Source of the DNA: Firmicutes bacterium ADurb.Bin467
GTDB lineage: Bacteria; Bacillota; Clostridia; Christensenellales; Aristaeellaceae
Assembly: GCA_002068815.1 (NCBI GenBank)
Contig: MWAC01000318.1
Coordinates: 1-13,187 of the forward strand
Direction of reading: 5' to 3'
DNA: 13,187 bases
Positions within the stretch are counted from its first letter, which is position 1. Each line of letters starts with the position of its first letter. This document shows positions 1,752-13,187 of this stretch, in pieces. A program made the position numbers and the translations under genes. The notes under the pieces were generated by a model. That model searched no databases. It was not told the origin of the DNA and worked only from the letters and a program-made list of their open reading frames with translations.

Positions 1752-2675
1752 CTATTGGAGGTCTCGGATGAGGTTCTCCGTCGCCATCGTCCCCATGTTC
1801 TCGGTCGCGCCGACGGTCGAGGCCGCGCAGTGCGAGCCGAGCACGACGTTGTCGAGCTCGAACCACATTTTGTCCTCCGGGGGCTCGTGCATGAACGCGT
1901 CGATGCCCGCGCCCCAGATGCGGTTCTCCTTCAAGGCCTTCAAGAGCGCGTTTTCGTCGATCAGCCCGCCGCGCGCGGTGTTGATCAAAACCGCGGTCGG
2001 CTTCATCAGAGCGATCTCGGCCTCGCCGATGAAATCGCGCGTCTCGGGCAGCAGCGGCAGGTGGAGGCTGATGAAGTCCGCCTCGCGGAAGATGCGCTCC
2101 GGCTCGGCGCGCTCGATGCCGTTCGCTCGGGCATAGTCCTCGTCCCAGCAGACGTCGTAGGCCATGACCTTCATCGAGAAGCCCTGCGCGCGCCGGGCTA
2201 CGTGCTTCCCGATCGCGCCGAGGCCGAACAGCCCGAGCGTCTTGCGGCTTACGTCGATCGTCGTGACCTTGCCCCAGTCCCCCCGGCGGCACCGCCGGTC
2301 GATCGGCACCACCTTTCGCGAGAGCGCGAGCATCAGCGCCATCGCGTAGTCCGCGACGGCCTCGGAGTTCGCGCCGACGGTGCGCGAGACCTTGATGCCG
2401 CGCGCCTTTGCCGCCTCTAAGTCGATGTTGTCGACGCCGACGCCGTATTTCGCGATCGCGCGCAGCTTCGGGGCCGCCGCGATCACGTCCGCGTCGAACG
2501 GGTCTACGCCGAGGATCACGCCGACGCAATCGGGGATCGCGCCGAGGATCTGTTCCTTGGACATGATGCCGCCGGTTTCGTTGCCCACGACCTCATAGCC
2601 GGCATCTTTCAGCATTGCGAACAGCGCCGGGTTGTTCTTGCCGTACGAGCGCGGCGTCACGAGCACCTTTTCCAT
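1752..2675 (-). CDS. D-2-hydroxyacid dehydrogenase (phosphoglycerate dehydrogenase-like)
   Basis: This 307-residue, probably NAD-dependent oxidoreductase belongs to the D-isomer 2-hydroxyacid dehydrogenase family, which interconverts 2-hydroxy acids and 2-oxo acids in the cytoplasm. The N-terminal catalytic part includes KYGVGVDNIDLEAAKARGI (about 76-94). The Rossmann motif GLGAIGK is at 151-157 with an acidic residue (Asp174) after the second strand, suggesting NAD rather than NADP. The catalytic triad is visible as Arg235 (NTARGG), Glu264 (MHEPP) and His282 (GSHCAAS). It lacks the C-terminal ACT regulatory domain of long SerA enzymes. It is the last gene of the GntR operon, 18 bases after the shikimate-dehydrogenase-like gene, with GGGAGGG 7 bases before its ATG. 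The context argues for a catabolic oxidoreductase rather than the serine-pathway enzyme, but SerA activity cannot be excluded. Confidence 0.88.
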   Translation of the reverse strand: MEKVLVTPRSYGKNNPALFAMLKDAGYEVVGNETGGIMSKEQILGAIPDCVGVILGVDPFDADVIAAAPKLRAIAKYGVGVDNIDLEAAKARGIKVSRTVGANSEAVADYAMALMLALSRKVVPIDRRCRRGDWGKVTTIDVSRKTLGLFGLGAIGKHVARRAQGFSMKVMAYDVCWDEDYARANGIERAEPERIFREADFISLHLPLLPETRDFIGEAEIALMKPTAVLINTARGGLIDENALLKALKENRIWGAGIDAFMHEPPEDKMWFELDNVVLGSHCAASTVGATENMGTMATENLIRDLQ

Positions 2676-2693
2676 GTCTCTGCCCTCCCGAAA

Positions 2694-3629
<936 letters not shown>

Positions 3630-3648: not shown

Positions 3649-3760
3649 TTATCGTTCGCTCCGCGAAAACGCGCTTGCCGGGTTCTCGCGGGTCATTCGT
3701 TCTATGTGTCGCCCCTCGAAAACGCCGTAAACGGGTTCTCGCGGGTCATTCGCAATATGT
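3649..3760 (-). repeat. Imperfect 53-bp tandem duplication of the hydrolase gene 3' end
   Basis: Bases 3649-3707 align with 3702-3760 at a constant offset of 53 bases, with about 45 of 59 positions equal and an unbroken identical run at 3679-3699 / 3732-3752. The upper copy encodes the true C-terminus of the phosphotriesterase-family gene (RMTRENPFTAFSRGDT, stop TAG). The lower copy encodes a variant of the same tail (RMTRENPASAFSRSER, stop TAA) in a shifted frame after that stop. Because 53 is not a multiple of three, the second tail is not translated by simple readthrough. It is either a local duplication or the remnant of a second hydrolase gene. Confidence 0.8.
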
Positions 3761-4622
3761 CGGCCTCCGGGACGCCCGATTGACGAAGCATCGGCAGGAA
3801 CGTCCGGAGCAGGTAGTCGAGCCCGATCTCGCCGCCGTAGCTCGAAAGCCGCGCGGCGGTCGCGTCGAGCGACAGAAGCAATCTGTCCCGATGCCCGCGC
3901 GCGAGCATGTGCAGGATCAGCCGCACCTCGTCCTCGTCGGAATGATACTTGAACCGGCCGATCGTGTCGTACTCGAGGTAGCAGCCCGCGTCGGCGATCC
4001 GCTCGTGGATCGAGAAGTCGCTCGCTTGCCGGTCGGCGTGGCAGAGGATCACGCGCTCGGGCGGGAGCCCCAGCTTCCCGCAGAGCTCGATCGCCTCGAC
4101 CGCCCCAGCGCCCGCCTCGGTGTGCAGCATCAGCGGCGCGCCGGCCGCGGCCGCCGCCCGCGCGGCCGCCTTGAGGTGCGTCCGGAAGCCGCCGACCGCG
4201 CCGTCCCTCCCGATCGCGGCCTTGACCGCGCCGGCGACGACCTCCGCGCATTCCTCGGTGCCGACGGTCAGTTCTCGCAGGAACCGCTCGAAGAGCTCGT
4301 CCTCCGAGGCGGCCAGGATTTTGTCGTCCGGCGCGTAGAACATCGGCATGTGAAAGCCCGTGACCGCGACGATCGACACGCCGCTCCCCTCGCTCAATCT
4401 CCGCAGCGCGCGCGCGTCGCGGCCGGCCCCCACGGGCTGCGCGTCGACGATCGCCGAGCCTCCCGCCTCGCGGTAGGAGATCAGCTCCGCGAGCGATTTT
4501 TCCTCGTCCGAAATCTCGAGTGCCGGGTAGTTCGCGGCCGCGGGCGTCCGGCGGACGAAGATGTGCTCGTGCGGCTGCATGTGCCCCGGGTTTGCGGCGG
4601 GGCCGAGTACGGTCAGCGGCAT
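3702..4622 (-). CDS. Phosphotriesterase-family metal-dependent hydrolase (lactonase-like)
   Basis: This 306-residue member of the amidohydrolase superfamily, phosphotriesterase group, should be a cytoplasmic binuclear-metal (beta/alpha)8 hydrolase. All expected metal ligands are seen: His18 and His20 (PHEH), Lys134 (AGAVKAAI, normally carboxylated), His167 (LMLHTEA), His195 (ILCHADR) and Asp253 (SLDAT). The C-terminal RMTRENPFTAF (291-301) is the usual closing helix of the family. Most bacterial homologues in sugar-acid operons are lactonases or esterases rather than true organophosphate hydrolases, so lactone or ester hydrolysis is inferred. The ATG follows the gntR stop with one base between (TGA C ATG) and AGGAGG lies 5 bases upstream (4628-4633), so translation is coupled to the regulator. 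A diverged copy of its last codons follows the stop. Confidence 0.88.
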   Translation of the reverse strand: MPLTVLGPAANPGHMQPHEHIFVRRTPAAANYPALEISDEEKSLAELISYREAGGSAIVDAQPVGAGRDARALRRLSEGSGVSIVAVTGFHMPMFYAPDDKILAASEDELFERFLRELTVGTEECAEVVAGAVKAAIGRDGAVGGFRTHLKAAARAAAAAGAPLMLHTEAGAGAVEAIELCGKLGLPPERVILCHADRQASDFSIHERIADAGCYLEYDTIGRFKYHSDEDEVRLILHMLARGHRDRLLLSLDATAARLSSYGGEIGLDYLLRTFLPMLRQSGVPEADILRMTRENPFTAFSRGDT

Positions 4623-4623
4623 G

Positions 4624-5373
4624 TCAGCCTCCTATGTCGAGCTCGACCTCGAAGCGGTTCTTGTCGCCGCGGTAGCGCGCGATCGAGTACTCGACCGGCT
4701 GCCCCTCGAAGTTGTAGCCGACCGTCCGCGAAAACTGCACGGGCGCGCCGACGGGGATGTTCAGAAGCCGCGCGTCGTCGGCGTTCGCGGCGACGGCCTC
4801 GAGCACGCGCGTCACGCGGCAGACGCGGCTCTCCGGGCGCGTCGAGAGCACCTCGTAGAGCGACTCCCGCTGGAAGTCGTGCTCGAGTAGGAACGCGCAC
4901 CTGTCGAGCGGCAGAAGCGTCCGGACGGTCACGATCGGCTCGTGGTCTACGAACCGCCTGCGCGAGAGCGCGAGCATCTTCGCGTTCTCCTCGAGCTCGA
5001 ACTGCTCCGCGTCCGCGGGCGTTACCTTCGCGGCCCCGAGAAACAGCACCTCGGTCGACGGCACGCCGCCCGCGCGCGCGATCTGCTCGTTGAAGCTCTC
5101 GAGCCGCTTGATGAAGTCCTGCTTGATCTTGACGGATTTGACGAACGTCCCCTTGCTCTTGACGCAGTAGAGCCAGCCCTCGTGCCGGAGCTCCGCAACC
5201 GCCTGCCGGACGGTCGTGCGGCTGACCTCGAACATCTCCGAGAGCTCCTTCTCGGTCGGGATCGCCTCGTCGACTAAGTACGCGCCGGCCTTGATCTCCT
5301 CGAGCAATATCTGCTTCAGCTGGAAATACAGCGGAATCGGCACGTTCTTGTCCAGCGTCCGGTCGTTGAGCAC
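4624..5373 (-). CDS. GntR-family transcriptional regulator (HutC type, UTRA effector domain)
   Basis: This 249-residue repressor-type regulator has an N-terminal winged helix-turn-helix (about 10-80; recognition helix SRTTVRQAV at 51-59, wing SKGTFV at 73-78) and a C-terminal UTRA ligand-binding domain (about 88-245), ending with the SRTVGYNFEGQPVEYS and ARYRGD segments typical of HutC/FarR proteins. The start is a GTG at 5373 with GGAGG 7 bases upstream (5381-5385); no ATG fits better. It is first in an operon with a phosphotriesterase-family hydrolase, an AroE-like enzyme and a hydroxyacid dehydrogenase, so it most likely senses the substrate or product of that pathway and represses the whole unit, including itself. 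A palindrome in its own leader is the probable operator. The effector cannot be told from sequence. Confidence 0.93.
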   Translation of the reverse strand: MLNDRTLDKNVPIPLYFQLKQILLEEIKAGAYLVDEAIPTEKELSEMFEVSRTTVRQAVAELRHEGWLYCVKSKGTFVKSVKIKQDFIKRLESFNEQIARAGGVPSTEVLFLGAAKVTPADAEQFELEENAKMLALSRRRFVDHEPIVTVRTLLPLDRCAFLLEHDFQRESLYEVLSTRPESRVCRVTRVLEAVAANADDARLLNIPVGAPVQFSRTVGYNFEGQPVEYSIARYRGDKNRFEVELDIGG

Positions 5374-5453: not shown

Positions 5454-6053
5454 TTACGAAAATTTCTCCGAAAATGCGCGCGGGGGCTCCTCCGGATGCG
5501 CCTCGACGACCGTGAGGTGCGCCGGCTCGTCCGACGCGGCGCAGATCAGGCAGTTTCCGAGCTCCGCGCGCGCGAGGTACGCAGCGTGCCGGCCGAGCAA
5601 ATAGATCTCGTCCTCGCCGGCGCAGAGCGTGCGGAAGCTGCCGGAGAGCCCCTCGCCGGTCAGCTTCAAATAGCTCTCGATGCCGACCCACTCGCGCACG
5701 GGCATGGGCGACCTGCGGTCCTTTTCCTCGATATCGACGCCGACCGGCAAGTCGGAAATCGCGCAGATCGCGAAGTCCCCCGCGTGCGCGAGGCTGATGC
5801 GCGGCGCTCCCGACAGAAGCTCCGGCTTGCCATTTTTGAGATACCGGTACTTCGGCGGCGGCGCGTAGTCGGGCACCAGCGCCTTTAGCGCCGCGTCGAG
5901 CGCCAGCTCCGCGCCGAGCGAGCGCCGCCGGTCCGACGCCCGCCGGTATTCCCGGATGTGCCGCGCGCGCGCGTCGGAAACCGCGCGCAGCCATCGCGCG
6001 TCGTCCGCGTCGAGCAGGCTCACGTCCACCGCGTACACAAAAATCTCTCTCAT
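5454..6053 (-). CDS. Sfp-type 4'-phosphopantetheinyl transferase
   Basis: The enzyme transfers 4'-phosphopantetheine from CoA to a serine of carrier proteins (acyl, peptidyl or aryl carrier domains). The 199-residue product has the family motifs in order: NGKPEL (74-79), ISLAHAGDFAICAIS (86-100), VGVDIEE (104-110) with the Mg-binding Asp107 and Glu109, and EWVGIESYLKLTGEGLSG (121-138) corresponding to the W-x-x-KES-x-x-K-x-x-G-x-GL motif, with Glu126 and Lys130 kept. The Lys before Glu126 is Ile125, which is unusual. It is somewhat shorter than Sfp (about 224). The ATG at 6053 was chosen because the protein similarity begins there and a promoter ends exactly at it. Upstream TTG (6071) and GTG (6059) codons lack a ribosome site. 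No carrier protein or synthase gene is nearby, so its partner is unknown. Confidence 0.85.
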   Translation of the reverse strand: MREIFVYAVDVSLLDADDARWLRAVSDARARHIREYRRASDRRRSLGAELALDAALKALVPDYAPPPKYRYLKNGKPELLSGAPRISLAHAGDFAICAISDLPVGVDIEEKDRRSPMPVREWVGIESYLKLTGEGLSGSFRTLCAGEDEIYLLGRHAAYLARAELGNCLICAASDEPAHLTVVEAHPEEPPRAFSEKFS

Positions 6054-6059
6054 GCGCAC

Positions 6060-6088
6060 ATTATAGCCCAAATGCCCGGGCGAATCAA
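6060..6088 (-). promoter_or_regulatory. Promoter of the phosphopantetheinyl transferase gene, predicted leaderless start
   Basis: On the minus strand TTGATT (6088-6083) and TATAAT (6065-6060) are 17 bases apart, a near-consensus sigma-A promoter. The last base of the -10 box is only six bases from the ATG at 6053, so the predicted +1 falls on the start codon itself. There is no Shine-Dalgarno sequence in the short interval. The -35 box coincides with the tail of the upstream terminator hairpin. Confidence 0.6.
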
Positions 6089-6117: not shown

Positions 6118-9100
6118 TCAGTATTCGATCTCTCCCTCGAACGCGAGGTTCGTCTCGCCGGTCAGCGACACCCGTCCGCGCTCGTACCGGGCGATCAGGT
6201 CGCCGCCGGGGAGCTTGACCGCGATGTCCTCGCCCTCCCTGCACAGCCCGTTTTTGACCGCCGCGACGGTCGCCGCGCACGCGCCGGTTCCGCAGGCGAG
6301 CGTCTCGCCGTTGCTGCGCTCGTAGGTGCGCAATTTCAGCATCCGCTCGCTGACAGCGCGCGCGAACGACGCGTTGACGCGCTCCGGGAAGATGTCCGCG
6401 CCCTCGAACGCCGGGCCGAGCTTCGCGAGATCCAGCGCGTCGACGCGCTCGACGAACGTCACGCAGTGCGGGTTGCCGAGCGACAGGCACGTGATCCGGT
6501 ACTCCTTCCCCGCGAACACATGCGGCCGATCGACGATCTCCGCCCCGGGCAGATTGACCGGCACGCGCGCGGGGGAAAACTCCGGGACGCCCATGTCGAC
6601 GCGCGCGGAGGAGACCCTGCCGTCGCTCAGGAACAGCTCGACGCGCTTGACGTTCCCGCCCGCCTCGACGGTCACGACTTCCTTGGCGGCGATCCCCTTG
6701 TCATACAGGTACTTGCCGACGAGCATCAGGCACGCGCCCGCCATGCCGCCGGCGGAGCCGTCGCGGTTGAACATGCGCATCCTCGCGTCCGCGACGTCGG
6801 ACTGCTCGATCAGCGCGATGCCGTCGCCGCCGATGCCGAAGTGCCGATCGCACAGGCTGACGCACAGCGACTCCGCGCAGGACACGCGGCCGTCGCGGTT
6901 GTCGACGACGATGTAGTCGGTGCCCGCGCACTGCATCTTCGAAAAGCGCAGCCGGCTCCGGGAGGCGCGCATGTGGTTTAAGTCGACGAGCTCGGTGTTC
7001 CGCTCGTTGTAGCGGCTCTTTAAGATGTCCGCGAGCGCGTTCGCGGTGTCGAGCGAGGTCAGGCACGCGATCGACAGCGACAGCGCGCGCCGGTGCAGCG
7101 CGATGTAGTCGTCCATCGTCTGATCGAAGACCGCGCCCGTGTAGACGATGTAGCGGATTTTGCCGCTCTCGAGCAGCTTGAACGCGTCGTCGGACTGCTT
7201 GATGCCCGGGATTTCGACGACGTCGATGCCGAGCTGCCGGATCGCGCGCGCGGTCGTCTCGGTCGCGTACATGGCCGCTCCAAGGTCGAAGAACTTCTTC
7301 GCGAGCGCCATCAGCCCGTAGTGGTCTCGGTCGTCGAGGGATAACAGGACCCCCATCTTCCCCGCCGACGGCACGCGTATGCCCGCGGCGGTCAGGCCCT
7401 TGAACAGCGCCTCGTTCATGTTCTTGCCGACGCCGAGCACCTCGCCGGTCGACTTCATCTCGGGGCCCAAATAGCTGTTGACGTCCGCGAGCTTCTCGAA
7501 CGAGAACACCGGCACCTTGACCGCGAAATACGGCGGCGTGCGCACGAGCCCGGTGCCGCAGCCGAGGTCCTTCAATTTCGCGCCGAGCATCACGCGGGAG
7601 GCCAGGTCGACCATCGGAACGCCCGTCACCTTGCTGATGTACGGAACCGTCCGCGACGCGCGCGGGTTGACCTCGATCACGTAGAGCCGGCCCTCGTAGA
7701 TCAGATACTGAATGTTTACGAGCCCCTTCGTGCCGAGCGCGAGCGCGAGCCTCTCCGAGCAGTCGATCAGCTCCTTCTTCATGCCGTCGGTCAGGTTGTA
7801 CGGCGGGTACACGGCGATGGAGTCGCCCGAGTGCACGCCCGCGCGCTCGATGTGCTCCATGATGCCGGGGATCAACACGTCCTCGCCGTCCGAGATCACG
7901 TCGACCTCGAGCTCGATGCCGGGCATGTACTTGTCGACGAGCACGGGGTTCTCGATGCCGGTTAAGAGGATCGTCCGCATGTAGGCGCGGACCTCCTTGT
8001 CGGCGTACGCGATCGTCATGTTCTGGCCGCCGATGACGTAGCTCGGGCGCACGAGCACCGGGTAGCCGAGCTTGTTTGCGGCAAGGACGGCCTCTTCCTC
8101 GGTCAATACGCCCATGCCCGCCGGGCGGCGGATGCCGAGCGATTCGAGCATCTTGTCGAACCGGTCGCGGTCCTCGGCCAGGTCGATGCCCTCGGCGGAG
8201 GTGCCGAGGATGCGTATGCCGTGCCGGTCGAGCGCCTTCGCGAGCTTGACCGCCGTCTGCCCGCCGAACGCGACGACGACGCCGACCGGGTTCTCCGCGG
8301 CGACGACGCTCAGCACGTCCTCCTCGGTCAGCGGCTCGAAGTAGAGCCGGTCGGCCGTGTCGTAGTCGGTCGAGACGGTCTCGGGGTTGTTGTTGACGAT
8401 GGCGACCTCGTAGCCCATCTCGCGCAGCGCGCGCACGCAGTGCACGGACGAGTAGTCGAACTCGATGCCCTGGCCTATGCGGATCGGCCCGGAGCCGAGC
8501 ACGACGATCGTCGGCCGGCCGCTGCGCGGGAACCGGCGGGAGTCGCAGGCCTTATCCGTCGTCGCGTAGAAGTAGGGCGTCTCGGCGTCGAACTCCGCCG
8601 CGCAGGTGTCGACCATCTTATAGCTGAACAGGAACGCGCCGGGGGCGTCGACGCCGAGCCGCTTCAAGGCTTTGTCGGTGTAGCCGAGGCGCTTGCCCTC
8701 AGCGTAGCTCGGGTTCTTCTCGAAGTCCGCGAGCTTCCGGAGCCTGCCTAAGAAAAACCGGTCGATGCGCGTGATTTCGAAGATTTCGTCGAAGGACACG
8801 CCGGCCGCGATCGCCTCGAACACGGTGAACAGCCTGCGGTCGTCCATCGCCGCGAGGCGCTTTCTGATGTCGCCGTCCTGTTTGAGGTTCAGCGTATCCA
8901 TGCCGATCTCCGAGCCGCGCACGGCCTTCATCAGCGCCGCCTCGAACGTCGGCGCGATCGCCATGACCTCGCCGGTCGCCTTCATCTGCGTGCCGAGCCT
9001 CCGGCTGGCGCCGGCGAACTTGTCGAACGGCCAGCGCGGCAGCTTCACGACGACGTAGTCGATCGCGGGCTCGAAGCACGCGCAGGCCTTGCCGGTCACG

Positions 9101-10110
9101 TCGTTCTTGATCTCGTCGAGCCGATAGCCGAGCGCGATCTTCGCCGCGACCTTCGCGATCGGGAAGCCGGTCGCCTTCGACGCGAGCGCGGACGAGCGCG
9201 ACACGCGCGGGTTGACCTCGATGACCGCGTACTCGAAGCTGTCCGGGTTCAGCGCGAACTGGCAGTTGCAGCCGCCGACGACGCCGAGCGCCGAGACGAT
9301 GTCGATCGCGGCGGTGCGCAGGATGTTGTACTCGCGGTTCGCGAGCGTCAAGGCGGGCGCGACGACGATCGAGTCGCCGGTGTGCACGCCGACCGGGTCG
9401 ACGTTCTCCATCGAGCAGATCGCGATCGCGTTGCCGACGCCGTCGCGCATGACCTCGAACTCGATCTCCTTCCAGCCGTAGATGTATTTCTCGATCAGCG
9501 CCTGGTGGATCGGCGACGCCTCGAGGCCGATCGCGGCGACCGCCGATAGCTCGTCCGCGCTGTACGCGACGCCGCCGCCCGCGCCGCCCAGCGTGAACGC
9601 CGGGCGCACGATGACCGGATAGCCGATCTTTTCGGCGATTTCGAGCGCGTGTTCGACGTCGGTCGCCGTCGCGGACGGGATCAGCGGCTGGCCGATCGCC
9701 TCCATCGTCTCCTTGAACAGCTCCCGGTCCTCGGCGCGGTCGATCGCCTCCGCGGGGGTTCCGAGTATGTGGACGCCCATCCGGTCGAGGAAGCCCTCCT
9801 TCGCAAGCTGCGAGGAGACCGTCAGCCCCGTCTGCCCGCCGAAGCCCGCGAGCAGCCCGTCCGGGCGCTCCTTCTCGATGATGCGGCGGATCGTCTCCAA
9901 GGTCAGAGGTTCGAGGTAGATTTCGTCGGCATTGGCCCTGTCCGTCATGATGGTCGCGGGGTTCGAATTCACGAGCACGACCTCGAGCCCGGCGGCCTTC
10001 AACACGCGGCAGGCCTGCGTGCCCGAGTAGTCGAACTCCGCCGCCTGCCCGATGACGATGGGTCCGGAGCCGATCATCATGACCTTTTTGATTCCCTCAA
10101 GCATCGGCAT
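6118..10110 (-). CDS. carB-dapF: Carbamoyl-phosphate synthase large subunit fused to a diaminopimelate epimerase (DapF) domain
   Basis: One uninterrupted 1330-codon frame. Residues 1 to about 1046 are CarB, which makes carbamoyl phosphate from bicarbonate, ATP and ammonia passed from CarA. There are two homologous ATP-grasp halves (IGSGPIVIGQAAEFDYSG near 13 and LGSGPIRIGQGIEFDYSS near 536) and an MGS-like allosteric domain (about 910-1046) ending TELVDLNHMR, a normal CarB end. About six residues later LRFSKM starts a full-length DapF-like domain (about 1054-1330) with MRMFNRDGS, LGNPHCV, ERVNASF, YER and GETLACGTGACA. The second catalytic Cys is Cys1273. The first is Ala1124, and the usual Asn of GNDF is Thr1064, so epimerase activity is doubtful. 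The ATG at 10110 has GGGAGGGA 7 bases upstream and overlaps carA by 14 bases. No ribosome site precedes the internal ATG at 6972, so a separate DapF product is unlikely. Confidence 0.93.
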   Translation of the reverse strand: MPMLEGIKKVMMIGSGPIVIGQAAEFDYSGTQACRVLKAAGLEVVLVNSNPATIMTDRANADEIYLEPLTLETIRRIIEKERPDGLLAGFGGQTGLTVSSQLAKEGFLDRMGVHILGTPAEAIDRAEDRELFKETMEAIGQPLIPSATATDVEHALEIAEKIGYPVIVRPAFTLGGAGGGVAYSADELSAVAAIGLEASPIHQALIEKYIYGWKEIEFEVMRDGVGNAIAICSMENVDPVGVHTGDSIVVAPALTLANREYNILRTAAIDIVSALGVVGGCNCQFALNPDSFEYAVIEVNPRVSRSSALASKATGFPIAKVAAKIALGYRLDEIKNDVTGKACACFEPAIDYVVVKLPRWPFDKFAGASRRLGTQMKATGEVMAIAPTFEAALMKAVRGSEIGMDTLNLKQDGDIRKRLAAMDDRRLFTVFEAIAAGVSFDEIFEITRIDRFFLGRLRKLADFEKNPSYAEGKRLGYTDKALKRLGVDAPGAFLFSYKMVDTCAAEFDAETPYFYATTDKACDSRRFPRSGRPTIVVLGSGPIRIGQGIEFDYSSVHCVRALREMGYEVAIVNNNPETVSTDYDTADRLYFEPLTEEDVLSVVAAENPVGVVVAFGGQTAVKLAKALDRHGIRILGTSAEGIDLAEDRDRFDKMLESLGIRRPAGMGVLTEEEAVLAANKLGYPVLVRPSYVIGGQNMTIAYADKEVRAYMRTILLTGIENPVLVDKYMPGIELEVDVISDGEDVLIPGIMEHIERAGVHSGDSIAVYPPYNLTDGMKKELIDCSERLALALGTKGLVNIQYLIYEGRLYVIEVNPRASRTVPYISKVTGVPMVDLASRVMLGAKLKDLGCGTGLVRTPPYFAVKVPVFSFEKLADVNSYLGPEMKSTGEVLGVGKNMNEALFKGLTAAGIRVPSAGKMGVLLSLDDRDHYGLMALAKKFFDLGAAMYATETTARAIRQLGIDVVEIPGIKQSDDAFKLLESGKIRYIVYTGAVFDQTMDDYIALHRRALSLSIACLTSLDTANALADILKSRYNERNTELVDLNHMRASRSRLRFSKMQCAGTDYIVVDNRDGRVSCAESLCVSLCDRHFGIGGDGIALIEQSDVADARMRMFNRDGSAGGMAGACLMLVGKYLYDKGIAAKEVVTVEAGGNVKRVELFLSDGRVSSARVDMGVPEFSPARVPVNLPGAEIVDRPHVFAGKEYRITCLSLGNPHCVTFVERVDALDLAKLGPAFEGADIFPERVNASFARAVSERMLKLRTYERSNGETLACGTGACAATVAAVKNGLCREGEDIAVKLPGGDLIARYERGRVSLTGETNLAFEGEIEY

Positions 10111-11164
10111 GCGGCTTCCCTCCCATCATCGCGACAAAGCGGTCGAACAGAAACGCGGTGTCCTCCGGCCCCGAGCACGCCTCGGGGTGGAACTGCACGG
10201 AGAACGCGTCGAGCGAGGGATAGTCGATGCCCTCGCAGGTTCCGTCGTTCGCGTTGACATACCGGAGCACGCCGGGCACGCTGTCCACCTCGACCGCGTA
10301 GCCGTGGTTCTGCGAGGTGATGTACGTGCGCGCGCCGCCGACGTCCCTGACCGGCTGGTTGCCGCCGCGGTGGCCGTACTTGAGCTTTTTCGTGCGCCCG
10401 CCCTGCGAAAGCGCCATCAACTGGTGGCCGAGGCAGATCCCAAAAACCGGGAGCTTGCCCATGAGCTTTCGGACCTGCTCGATCTCGAACGGGTTGTCCA
10501 GCGGGTCGCCGGGGCCGTTTCCGAGCATGAGGCCGTCGAACCCTCCCGCGAGGATTTCCTCCGCAGGAGTATCGTTGGGGAACAGATTGACCGTGCACCC
10601 GCGCCGGTTCAGCGCCCGGAGGATGCCGCGCTTCGCGCCGTAGTCGATCAGCGCGACGCGGAACCGCTCGTCCTCCGCCGGGAAGGCCCTCCGCCCCCCC
10701 CCGCTCGCGGCCGCGACCGCGTTGTCGATCCGCCACGCCGCGATTTCCGCGAGGTTCCCGGGGATTTCATCGCAGAGCATCGCGTTCGCGACGCCCTTCT
10801 CACGCAAAAGCCGCGTGATCTCGCGCGTGTCCACGCCGTATATGCCCGGCACGCCGCGCTCCCTCAGAAACGCGTCGACCGTGCCCTCCGAGCGGAAGTT
10901 CGAGGGCAGTTCGCACCACTCGCGCACGACGTAGCCGCGCGCGAGGCACCTGCCCTCGAAGTCGTCCGGGATCACGCCGTAGTTGCCGATCATCGGAAAC
11001 GTCTGCAATATGATCTGCCCGCAGTAGCTCGGGTCGGTCAGGGTCTCGAGATAGCCGACCATGTTCGTCGTGAACACGAGCTCGCCGATCGCCGACGCGT
11101 CCGCGCCGAACGCGAACCCCTCGAACGCCTCGCCGGAGCTCAAAACGAGATAGCGCCGCTTCAC
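10097..11164 (-). CDS. carA: Carbamoyl-phosphate synthase small (glutaminase) subunit
   Basis: CarA hydrolyses glutamine and channels ammonia to CarB for arginine and pyrimidine synthesis. The 355-residue product has the small-subunit N-terminal domain (FTTNMVGYLETLTDPSY at about 31-47, VDTREITRLLR at 111-121) and a class I glutamine amidotransferase domain (about 168-347) with the nucleophile Cys244 in GICLGHQ and His326/Glu328 in QFHPEA. The GTG at 11164 was chosen because similarity begins there (VKRRYLVLSSGEAFEG), it overlaps the argD stop as GTGA, and a strong ribosome site lies 5 bases before it. A longer in-frame extension upstream would be out-of-frame argD sequence. Its 3' end overlaps carB by 14 bases. 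A run of nine G (on the coding strand) encodes three Gly in the interdomain linker. Confidence 0.95.
   Translation of the reverse strand: MKRRYLVLSSGEAFEGFAFGADASAIGELVFTTNMVGYLETLTDPSYCGQIILQTFPMIGNYGVIPDDFEGRCLARGYVVREWCELPSNFRSEGTVDAFLRERGVPGIYGVDTREITRLLREKGVANAMLCDEIPGNLAEIAAWRIDNAVAAASGGGRRAFPAEDERFRVALIDYGAKRGILRALNRRGCTVNLFPNDTPAEEILAGGFDGLMLGNGPGDPLDNPFEIEQVRKLMGKLPVFGICLGHQLMALSQGGRTKKLKYGHRGGNQPVRDVGGARTYITSQNHGYAVEVDSVPGVLRYVNANDGTCEGIDYPSLDAFSVQFHPEACSGPEDTAFLFDRFVAMMGGKPHADA
10694..10702 (-). repeat. Nine-base homopolymer in the carA linker
   Basis: Nine consecutive C on the plus strand (G on the coding strand) form three GGG glycine codons around residues 155-157 of CarA, between its two domains. 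Such tracts are prone to replication slippage and to sequencing error. A length change would frameshift carA before the glutaminase domain. Confidence 0.85.
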
Positions 11165-12315
11165 CCGGCGATCACCTCTTTCAGGACGGATACGGCGGCC
11201 TTGAGTTCGTCCCAGCCGATGTTCAAGGCCGGGAGCAGCCGGAGCTTCTTCTTCGCCGTCAGCACGAGCACGCCGCGCTTGAGGCAATCGTTTGCGATCT
11301 CGACCGCGGGCCTCTCGACCTCGACGCCGAGCATCAGCCCGAGGCCGGAGACGGACAATACGCCCTTTGCGCCGGTCAGCTCGCCCACGATGTAAGCGGA
11401 CTTTTCGCGGACTTCTTCGAGCAGCTTTTCGTCGATCCGGTTCAGGACGCTCAAAGCTCCGGCGCAGCTCACGGGGTTTCCGCCGAAGGTCGAGCCGTGG
11501 TCGCCGGCTTGAAGCACGTCCTTCGTCCGGTCGTTGAACAGCGTCGCGCCGATCGGCAGCCCGCCGCCGAGTCCCTTCGCGGTCGAGACGATGTCGGGAG
11601 AAAGCCCCGCGGTCATGTACGCGTAGAGCATCCCCGAGCGGCCGTTTCCGGTCTGCACCTCGTCGACCAACAGGAGCATGTCCTTTTCGCGGCAGAGCGC
11701 CTCGACGCCCTGCAAAAACTCCGGCTTCAGCGCGCGCACGCCGCCCTCGCCCTGCACGATCTCGAGCATCACCGCGCAGCAGTTGCCCGCGTCCGCGAGC
11801 GCCTTTATGCTATTGAGGTCGTCCGGCCCGGCGAACGCGAATCCCGCGGGGAACGGCCCGAAGTGCCGGTGGAACACGTCCTGCCCGGTCGCGGCGAGCG
11901 TCGCGATCGTGCGGCCGTGGAAGCTGTCCTTGAGCGTGATGATCGTGTCCCTCCCGGTCGCCTCGCCGAACTTGCGCGCGGCCTTGAGCATGCACTCGTT
12001 CGCCTCCGCGCCGGAGTTCGAAAAGAACACCTTTCGCATGCCGGTCCGCAGGCAGAGCTGCTCGGCGAGCTTCGCGCAAGGCTCGGCGTAATAGAGGTTG
12101 CAGGTGTGCTGGAGCGTCCTGACCTGATGGATGACCGCCTCGGCCCACTTGTCGTCCGCGACGCCGAACGCGTTGACGGCGATGCCGCTGCCGAGGTCCA
12201 GGTACTCCTTGCCGTCCTCGTCCCAGAGCCTCGCGCCGCATCCGCGCGCGAACGTCGCCGGGAATCGCTTGTAGGTATTCGCCACATAGGTTTCGCACAG
12301 TTCCATGATCGTCAT
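11161..12315 (-). CDS. argD: Acetylornithine aminotransferase
   Basis: ArgD is a class III pyridoxal-phosphate aminotransferase converting N-acetylglutamate semialdehyde to N-acetylornithine (fourth step of arginine synthesis); many also act on succinyl-diaminopimelate. The 384-residue product has LDLGSGIAVNAFG (about 40-52), the phosphate-binding SNSGAEANE (99-107), LLVDEVQTGNGRSG (215-228) with Asp218 facing the cofactor nitrogen, the Schiff-base Lys247 in STAKGLGGG, and LRLLPALNI near 358. The ATG at 12315 was preferred to an upstream TTG (12330) because GAGGGGTGA (12328-12320) lies just before it and the family N-terminus fits. It follows argB after 4 bases and overlaps carA by 4. The dual specificity known in some ArgD enzymes is of interest because a DapF domain is in the same operon, but specificity cannot be read from sequence. 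Confidence 0.95.
   Translation of the reverse strand: MTIMELCETYVANTYKRFPATFARGCGARLWDEDGKEYLDLGSGIAVNAFGVADDKWAEAVIHQVRTLQHTCNLYYAEPCAKLAEQLCLRTGMRKVFFSNSGAEANECMLKAARKFGEATGRDTIITLKDSFHGRTIATLAATGQDVFHRHFGPFPAGFAFAGPDDLNSIKALADAGNCCAVMLEIVQGEGGVRALKPEFLQGVEALCREKDMLLLVDEVQTGNGRSGMLYAYMTAGLSPDIVSTAKGLGGGLPIGATLFNDRTKDVLQAGDHGSTFGGNPVSCAGALSVLNRIDEKLLEEVREKSAYIVGELTGAKGVLSVSGLGLMLGVEVERPAVEIANDCLKRGVLVLTAKKKLRLLPALNIGWDELKAAVSVLKEVIAG
11170..11181 (-). promoter_or_regulatory. Extended Shine-Dalgarno site of carA inside argD
   Basis: AAAGAGGTGATC on the minus strand differs by one base from AAGGAGGTGATC, the full complement of a typical 16S rRNA 3' end, and ends 5 bases before the carA GTG. 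It lies within the last codons of argD and settles the choice of the GTG start. Confidence 0.75.
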
Positions 12316-12319
12316 ATTT

Positions 12320-13187
12320 TCACCCCTCAAACATTGTCCCGATGCCCTCGTCGGTCAGAAGCTCGATCAACACCGAGTGCGGCACCCGGCCGTCGATGAT
12401 GAACACCTTTTTGACGCCGCGGCGGATCGCCTCCATGCAGCACTCGGCCTTCGGGATCATGCCGCCCGCGATGACGCCGGACTCGATCAATTGCGGCACC
12501 TCGGTCATGTCGATGTGCACGATCAAGGACGACGGGTCGTTCCGGTCGCGGAGTATCCCCGCGATGTCGGTCATGCTGACGAGGCAGACCGCGCCCAATT
12601 CGCCCGCGATGCGCGCGGCGGCGGTGTCGGCGTTGATGTTGTAGGTGTTGCCATCCATGTCGCAGCCGACGGTCGACACGACGGGGATGTAGCCCTTTTC
12701 GAGCACGTCCAAAATCGGCTCGACGTTCGTGCGCACGATCTCGCCGACGAAGCCGAGCTCCTCGCGAAGCGGCCGCGCCTCGATCATCCTGCCGTCCATG
12801 CCGCACAGCCCGATCGCCTTGCCGCCGATCGACGACAGCAGGTTTACGAGCCCCTTGTTGATCTTGCCGGAGAGCACCATCTGCACGACGTCCGCCGTCT
12901 CGCGGTCGGTCACGCGCAGCCCGTCGACGAACGACGAGGGCTTGCCGATCTTCTTGAGCATGTCCGTGATCTCCGGCCCGCCGCCGTGGATCAGCACGAC
13001 CTTGACGCCGACGAGCGACAAAAGCACGATGTCCCGCATGACGGCGTGCTTCAACTCCTCGTTGATCATGGCGTTGCCGCCGAACTTGACGACGATCGTC
13101 TTGCCGTGGAAACGCTTGATGTAGGGCAGGGCCTCGGCGAGGATGCCGGCTTCCTGGGCGGGGGTGAGCTGTGCGGTGTTGGCGGTC
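12320..13187 (-). CDS. argB: Acetylglutamate kinase, 5' end outside window
   Basis: ArgB phosphorylates N-acetylglutamate (second step of arginine synthesis), usually the point of feedback control. The 288 visible codons contain FHGKTIVVKFGGNAM (about 26-40) with the catalytic Lys, VVLIHGGGPEI near 65, the substrate loop DGLRVTD, GKINKGLVNLLSSIGGKA, the INADTAAARIAGELGA segment and the C-terminal VIAGGMIPKAECC. The frame stays open to the window edge, so the start lies just outside. The ATG at 13069 is internal, because family similarity continues upstream of it. The residues before the kinase core (TPAQEAGILAEALPYIKRF) match the N-terminal helix of hexameric, arginine-inhibited enzymes, so feedback inhibition by arginine is likely. 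The stop is followed by argD after 4 bases. Confidence 0.95.
   Translation of the reverse strand, partial: TANTAQLTPAQEAGILAEALPYIKRFHGKTIVVKFGGNAMINEELKHAVMRDIVLLSLVGVKVVLIHGGGPEITDMLKKIGKPSSFVDGLRVTDRETADVVQMVLSGKINKGLVNLLSSIGGKAIGLCGMDGRMIEARPLREELGFVGEIVRTNVEPILDVLEKGYIPVVSTVGCDMDGNTYNINADTAAARIAGELGAVCLVSMTDIAGILRDRNDPSSLIVHIDMTEVPQLIESGVIAGGMIPKAECCMEAIRRGVKKVFIIDGRVPHSVLIELLTDEGIGTMFEG

Follow-up and report, generated by a model that had tools for sequence, protein, structure and literature searches.

The stretch of DNA analysed here, which we call the window, is a 13,187-nucleotide contig (C318) of the draft genome of Firmicutes bacterium ADurb.Bin467 (G000; 1.67 Mb, 74% complete), and it carries a gene that encodes both the large subunit of carbamoyl-phosphate synthase (CPS), CarB, and diaminopimelate (DAP) epimerase, DapF. 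CPS stands at the start of arginine and pyrimidine synthesis and is a textbook case of an allosteric enzyme; DapF is positioned at the lysine/cell-wall branch. The carB::dapF gene (6118..10110, minus strand, as are all window features below) is a single open frame of 1330 codons, with an ATG start and zero internal stops, and it scores above the cut-offs of both NCBIfam models: TIGR01369 (CarB) matches residues 5-1028, including both synthase halves, with 1345 bits against a cut-off of 1027, and TIGR00652 (DapF) matches residues 1055-1328 with 220 bits against a curated cut-off of 114.65. The CarB part (6973..10110, residues 1-1046) contains the allosteric MGS domain (7057..7317, residues 932-1018; Pfam PF02142), the DapF-like domain spans 6127..6948 (residues 1055-1328), and an 8-residue linker (HMRASRSR, 6952..6975) lies at the joint, which reads ELVDLN-HMRASRSR-LRFSKM. 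An earlier note on this DNA had described a one-frame fusion with a clean joint between a normal CarB C-terminus and a DapF N-terminus, and this description is borne out by the open frame, the two profiles and many relatives with the same layout. The linker is 8 residues long in 68 of the 70 fusion junctions parsed by pattern (127 were tried and 57 fell outside the pattern) and is modelled as ordered, with a block predicted local distance difference test (pLDDT) score of 88-89 across it and a predicted template modelling (pTM) score of 0.84 for the C-terminal half of the protein.

The fusion is real and widespread in Clostridia and is not unique to the window. When approximately 5.8 billion proteins were searched for long proteins containing the window DapF part, 3187 of 8000 scored candidates matched; precomputed Pfam assigns both CarB-type and DapF domains to the best 120 of these 3187, of which the few that are named by their source are all called carbamoyl-phosphate synthase large subunit. 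Among named copies, the closest to the window gene are four records of Candidatus Pullichristensenella, with 73-76% identity in the DapF part. A genome scan with the DapF part kept 80 of 525 relatives, fused for the most part, with rows picked by their likeness to the window. The even draw alone is free of that bias: among its 293 clostridial genomes (each at least 90% complete; 68 searched a second time), 40 carry the fusion, spanning 20 family codes, five of them as partial frames (G118, G149, G221, G278 and G388). Named fused copies come from Oscillospiraceae, Lachnospiraceae (Herbinix), Peptococcaceae, Pelotomaculum, Christensenellaceae and others, so that the database search proposed in the earlier note, for CarB, MGS and DapF in a single chain with their taxonomy, did return more such proteins across Clostridia. 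The window gene has the features of this family, namely carA upstream, a normal CarB end, a short linker and a full DapF domain.

Because the arrangement recurs in the four Pullichristensenella records and in more than 100 other fused frames, it is not a product of chance or of a sequencing fault; an assembly or frameshift artefact is ruled out by the 127 fused domains collected from many genomes with the same arrangement. An internal restart yielding a separate DapF was also considered. By eye there is no purine-rich ribosome site upstream of the internal ATG at 6972, in agreement with the earlier note, and the internal methionine is unconserved, being leucine in whole clades (the Oscillibacter and Ruminococcus copies), which rules out a restart as a conserved feature.

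The active site of the fused DapF domain

DapF catalysis uses two cysteines, and the window domain has one of them. Sequence and alignments place an alanine codon (GCG, 6739..6741) at the catalytic Cys73 position, where MAGACLM stands in place of the MCGNGxR of active DapF, while Cys217 (TGC, 6292..6294) is kept within ETLACGTGA. Relative to the DapF family (TIGR00652, PF01678), the window domain differs by its fusion to CarB, by this alanine, by the replacement of Asn11, Asn75 and Arg78 as well, and by a broken signature: at the place of N-x-(DN)-(GS)-(SENGFT)-x(4)-C-(GI)-N-(GA)-x-R (PMC8225329) it has NRDGSAGGMAGACLM, which shows no C, N or R where the pattern fixes them. The DapF domain that the earlier note called complete is thus complete in its fold and incomplete in its active site. 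A cysteine adjoining Cys73, as in the window's MAGAC, was tried as a substitute and ruled out as a consistent one, other Cys73-less copies having mostly A, S, N or G.

A survey of 206 DapF domains, 79 separate and 127 fused, shows how far this extends (in one alignment step 184 domains collapsed to 150 distinct ones, and from another set, of 123 proteins, 12 that fell outside the Cys73 pattern were dropped, P0003, a CarB-only piece, among them). Cys73 is present in all 79 separate DapFs and in 67 of the 127 fused ones; the other 60 have Ala (45), Gly (8), Ser (6) or Pro (1) at this position. In H. influenzae DapF the distal DAP centre is held by Asn64, Asn157, Asn190, Arg209, Glu208 and Gln44, and the reacting end by Asn11, Gly74, Asn75, Gly218 and Ser219 (PMC8225329). 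The 60 Cys73-less copies keep distal Asn64 (60), Asn157 and Glu208 (59 each), and Arg209 and Asn190 (56 each), and, among other residues, His159 and Gly218 (60 each), Gly74 (58), Asn75 (55), Cys217 (54, being gone as well in six) and Asn11 (51). The Gln44 position is glycine in nearly all domains collected, active or not. The window copy retains the five other distal residues, and its reacting side is without Asn11, Cys73 and Asn75. Epimerase activity is absent from the C73A/C217A double mutant of E. coli DapF (PMC4227774), and PddB, a DapF-like racemase, loses its activity almost wholly, down to a faint remainder, when either cysteine is changed to serine (PMC8225329).

Separate DapF, Ddh and DapL beside the fusion

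The Cys73 state of the fused gene goes with the presence of other DAP enzymes. Among fused genes in the searched genomes, a separate DapF is found beside 43 of 55 Cys73-less but only 7 of 56 Cys73-intact genes (G040 is counted as having one, though its extra matches are fragments), with a raw Fisher p of 1e-12 for rows related by descent. Restricted to the even draw, the counts are 13 of 18 and 3 of 22. Ddh forms meso-DAP without an epimerase and was found in all five even-draw Cys73-less genomes that have no separate DapF (G154, G208, G250, G260 and G267), so that all 18 have another source. Four Cys73-intact genomes (G112, G202, G221 and G389) yielded neither a separate DapF nor Ddh, and the fused DapF is therefore the only route found there. 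Since most genomes with a Cys73-intact fused gene have no other DapF, and the Cys73-less ones, outside four draft genomes that include the window's, accompany a separate DapF or Ddh, the Cys73-intact fusions are probably bifunctional.

DapL was searched for in 80 genomes with one model (E <=1e-80; other DapL forms might escape) and was found in all 24 Cys73-intact-fusion genomes tested. Among genomes without a separate DapF it is present in 21/21 that kept Cys73 vs 1/12 that lost it. The next gene downstream is dapL for 22 of 67 Cys73-intact vs 0 of 59 Cys73-less fused genes (47 and 37 of which, respectively, had a match or a downstream stretch of at least 1 kb), and for 22 of 79 separate dapF genes. 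Within the window's own genus, four of the six other genomes (G002, G003, G005 and G006) have a separate, Cys73-intact DapF; of the remaining two, G004 has the fusion only and G001 (70% complete) has no DapF whatsoever.

In the tree of the CarB part, from which one fused row was left out as too short, the Cys73 state changes at least nine times, four of them forced by well-supported branches, and the DapF tree requires a minimum of five changes among fused rows, counts that by themselves cannot separate gain from loss of Cys73. Because every separate DapF has Cys73, we infer that the residue was lost rather than gained. In the DapF tree, separate DapFs fall inside groups of fused ones; no carB was found directly upstream of the separate DapFs L059, L062, L064 and L067, which leaves no clear scar of fission there. 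The separate DapFs of Oscillibacter-type genomes (L143-L152) form one very divergent group with a branch length of 2.4 in the DapF tree, and may come from a source other than the usual clostridial DapF.

Several genomes carry more than one arrangement. The draft genome G074 has two Cys73-intact fusions (L023 and L155, frames of 1321 and 1324 residues), and in G102 (L071:2797-7785) a Cys73-intact fusion is followed, 55 nucleotides on from frame to frame, by a separate Cys73-intact dapF. In G149 (L238:1342-4100), which also holds a fusion, the stop of an unfused carB is followed after 5 nucleotides by the ATG of a separate dapF and then by dapL, so the carB-dapF linkage exists without fusion too; a similar pair occurs in G278 (L236).

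Selection, the MGS loop and the gene neighbourhood

The Cys73-less DapF domain is under purifying selection, somewhat looser than that on CarB. Between close relatives, the median ratio of nonsynonymous to synonymous substitution rates (dN/dS) is 0.22 for the DapF part and 0.15 for the CarB part in Pullichristensenella, 0.22 and 0.16 in the Oscillibacter-type copies, both Cys73-less, and 0.07 and 0.03 in a Cys73Gly genus; two Cys73-intact groups have 0.08 each in the DapF part, and 0.07 and 0.05 in the CarB part.

Relative to the CarB family (TIGR01369), the window protein is alike in being a full-length synthase with an MGS domain and with carA directly upstream, and differs in its 284-residue extension containing DapF and in an altered MGS loop. 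By analogy with E. coli CPS, this loop would bind nucleotide phosphate. In an alignment of 131 MGS regions the Cys73-intact fusions have STSxKGR or a variant, with a closing Arg/Lys in 67/67, whereas 37 of the 60 Cys73-less copies have lost that residue, the loop reading YTGAVFD in the window and LTGSTEP in the Oscillibacter-type copies. Across the 127 copies the alteration is thus found only alongside Cys73 loss (0/67 in intact ones).

The fused gene follows argB, argD and carA. The small-subunit gene carA (10097..11287; TIGR01368, 381 bits, cut-off 307) overlaps the carB start with its stop by 14 nucleotides; before it lie an argD-like gene of the acetylornithine/succinylornithine transaminase family (11161..12330; TIGR00707, 407.9 bits, just below the cut-off of 410.05) and the acetylglutamate kinase gene argB (12320..13186; TIGR00761, 233 bits on 12320-13069, cut-off 151), the frame of which runs past the contig end. 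The window's genus has an additional, unfused CarB, whose gene in the sister genome G003 clusters with carA, pyrF and a pyrK-like gene (below its cut-offs). Given the arg genes before the fused gene and the pyr-type cluster around the unfused carB, the window's fused enzyme is probably the arginine-side CPS. Elsewhere, carA lies within 600 nucleotides upstream of 106 of 126 fused copies (window excluded), and the 20 others include copies that have a broken carB frame or are truncated at the end of the locus.

The fusion is followed directly by a 205-residue open reading frame (5454-6071) that has no match in Pfam (1e-5) or NCBIfam (1e-8); by eye, from its motif VGVDIE, we presume a phosphopantetheinyl transferase of Sfp type. 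Further on are an apparent pair of a GntR/UTRA regulator and an adjoining phosphotriesterase-family protein (3702-5373), and a D-2-hydroxyacid dehydrogenase adjoining a protein that matches shikimate dehydrogenase only weakly and nothing in Pfam at 1e-5 (1752-3629).

Possible roles of the fused domain

We lean towards the view that the DapF half of the window protein is a pseudo-epimerase, now a non-catalytic part that would regulate and/or stabilise the arginine-side synthase; a regulatory or amino-acid-sensing role is our best guess for the domain. The clostridial CarB-DapF family, of which the window gene is a member, would be old, with an ancestor that both made carbamoyl phosphate and epimerised LL-DAP to meso-DAP in a single polypeptide, in the layout carA-carB::dapF, often followed by dapL. 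In the presence of a separate DapF or a Ddh route, Cys73 would have become dispensable and been lost several times with the domain retained, and in the window's clade the MGS nucleotide loop would have been altered too, apparently later than Cys73. The present protein would then be an arginine-side synthase with a non-catalytic DapF-like domain fixed rigidly to its regulatory C-terminus; this domain may bind an L-amino-acid-like ligand and/or stabilise or modulate the synthase. More specifically, but only tentatively, the Cys73-less domain might be a new kind of amino-acid-sensing domain, derived from a biosynthetic epimerase joined to the allosteric end of CPS, in place of MGS nucleotide control, through which arginine, ornithine, lysine or DAP sets carbamoyl phosphate output.

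Known systems offer partial parallels. E. coli DapF with C73A and C217A, which is epimerase-dead, still activates RppH (PMC4227774), and this regulation without catalysis provides a precedent for a non-catalytic role of the window domain. The DapF fold acts on another enzyme without epimerase activity in both cases; in E. coli, however, it is a separate, active DapF that binds RppH, whereas in the window a Cys73-less domain is covalently attached to CPS. PddB, a diaminobutyrate (Dab) racemase, is likewise a DapF relative with a changed role and is nearly the mirror image of the window domain: it keeps both cysteines and Glu208 and has Asn64, Asn157, Asn190 and Arg209 replaced, whereas the window domain keeps those and lacks Cys73 (PMC8225329). 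An O-ureidoserine racemase (7vdy), a racemase according to its entry title, has no CarB fusion.

That the dead domain is a structural passenger, which merely folds against and stabilises CarB or its oligomer with no sensing, strikes us as rather unlikely. The ordered 8-residue linker and the pTM of the C-terminal half fit such a part, purifying selection by itself requires no ligand, and pocket retention does not significantly exceed background; yet the Cys73-less copies keep more than a scaffold obviously needs (Asn64 in 60/60, Asn157 and Glu208 in 59/60 each, Arg209 in 56/60). We consider it improbable that the Cys73-less domain still has a catalytic function of its own, whether as an epimerase, a racemase or a lyase, with DAP or another amino acid as substrate and Cys217 as its single cysteine. 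That residue persists in 54/60 Cys73-less copies, and one-way activity has been described for a racemase with a Cys-to-Thr change (PMC8142540), but the residues that replace Cys73 are mostly incapable as acid or base, PddB is nearly inactive after either Cys-to-Ser change, and Cys217 itself is lost in 6/60. The earlier note had supposed an ordinary bifunctional enzyme, and as regards the window copy a working DAP epimerase is very unlikely. The fused DapF is the only one found in the window's own genome and scores above the TIGR00652 equivalog cut-off; against this, Cys73 is alanine, Asn11 and Asn75 are gone, and that genome is 74% complete, with a separate Cys73-intact DapF in 4/6 genus mates. 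The interpretation in the earlier note is thus supported in part.

Several observations weigh against a pseudo-epimerase that regulates or stabilises the arginine-side synthase. The distal residues are 97% kept in comparison with a mean of 89% over 82 columns conserved in Cys73-intact fusions, and random column sets equal their retention in 9% of draws (all Cys73-less copies) or 15% (MGS-altered copies), so that distal-pocket retention is not significantly over background and is no demonstration of ligand binding. The association between Cys73 state and separate DapF is inflated by shared ancestry, and with only four independent pairs on supported branches the sign test is powerless and gives no significance. 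Ddh occurs in 19 of 24 tested Cys73-intact genomes and alone fails to explain or predict Cys73 loss, and G084, the one Cys73-less genome in which DapL was found without a separate DapF, has Ddh as well. Neither a separate DapF nor Ddh was found in the Cys73-less genomes G000 (74% complete), G004 (92%), G009 (88%) and G070, all four drafts; DapL and Ddh were not found in G000 and G003-G006, and the sole lysA match in G000 is below cut-off. Finally, the fused CarB is the sole CarB above the model cut-off in 8/8 Oscillibacter-type genomes tested, and an arginine-only role, or division of labour, is therefore not clade-wide.

A literature search aimed at the CarB-DapF fusion, dead DapF and the DapF cysteines, with most subscription journals outside its reach, found no paper on the fusion, and the available part of a study of gut amino-acid pathways (PMC9026213), which covers lysine variants and a pyridoxal-phosphate-type DapF2, does not show it. 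With the named full-length fusion proteins (among the best 120 of the 3187 matches) labelled CarB only, dapF could be mistakenly reported as absent in pathway reconstructions, or a dead DapF mistakenly scored as present. For the Clostridia themselves, a widespread fusion is apparently the only DapF in some genomes and has elsewhere repeatedly lost Cys73 with the domain kept, and the family would thus offer a natural series from an enzyme to a non-catalytic, perhaps regulatory, domain.

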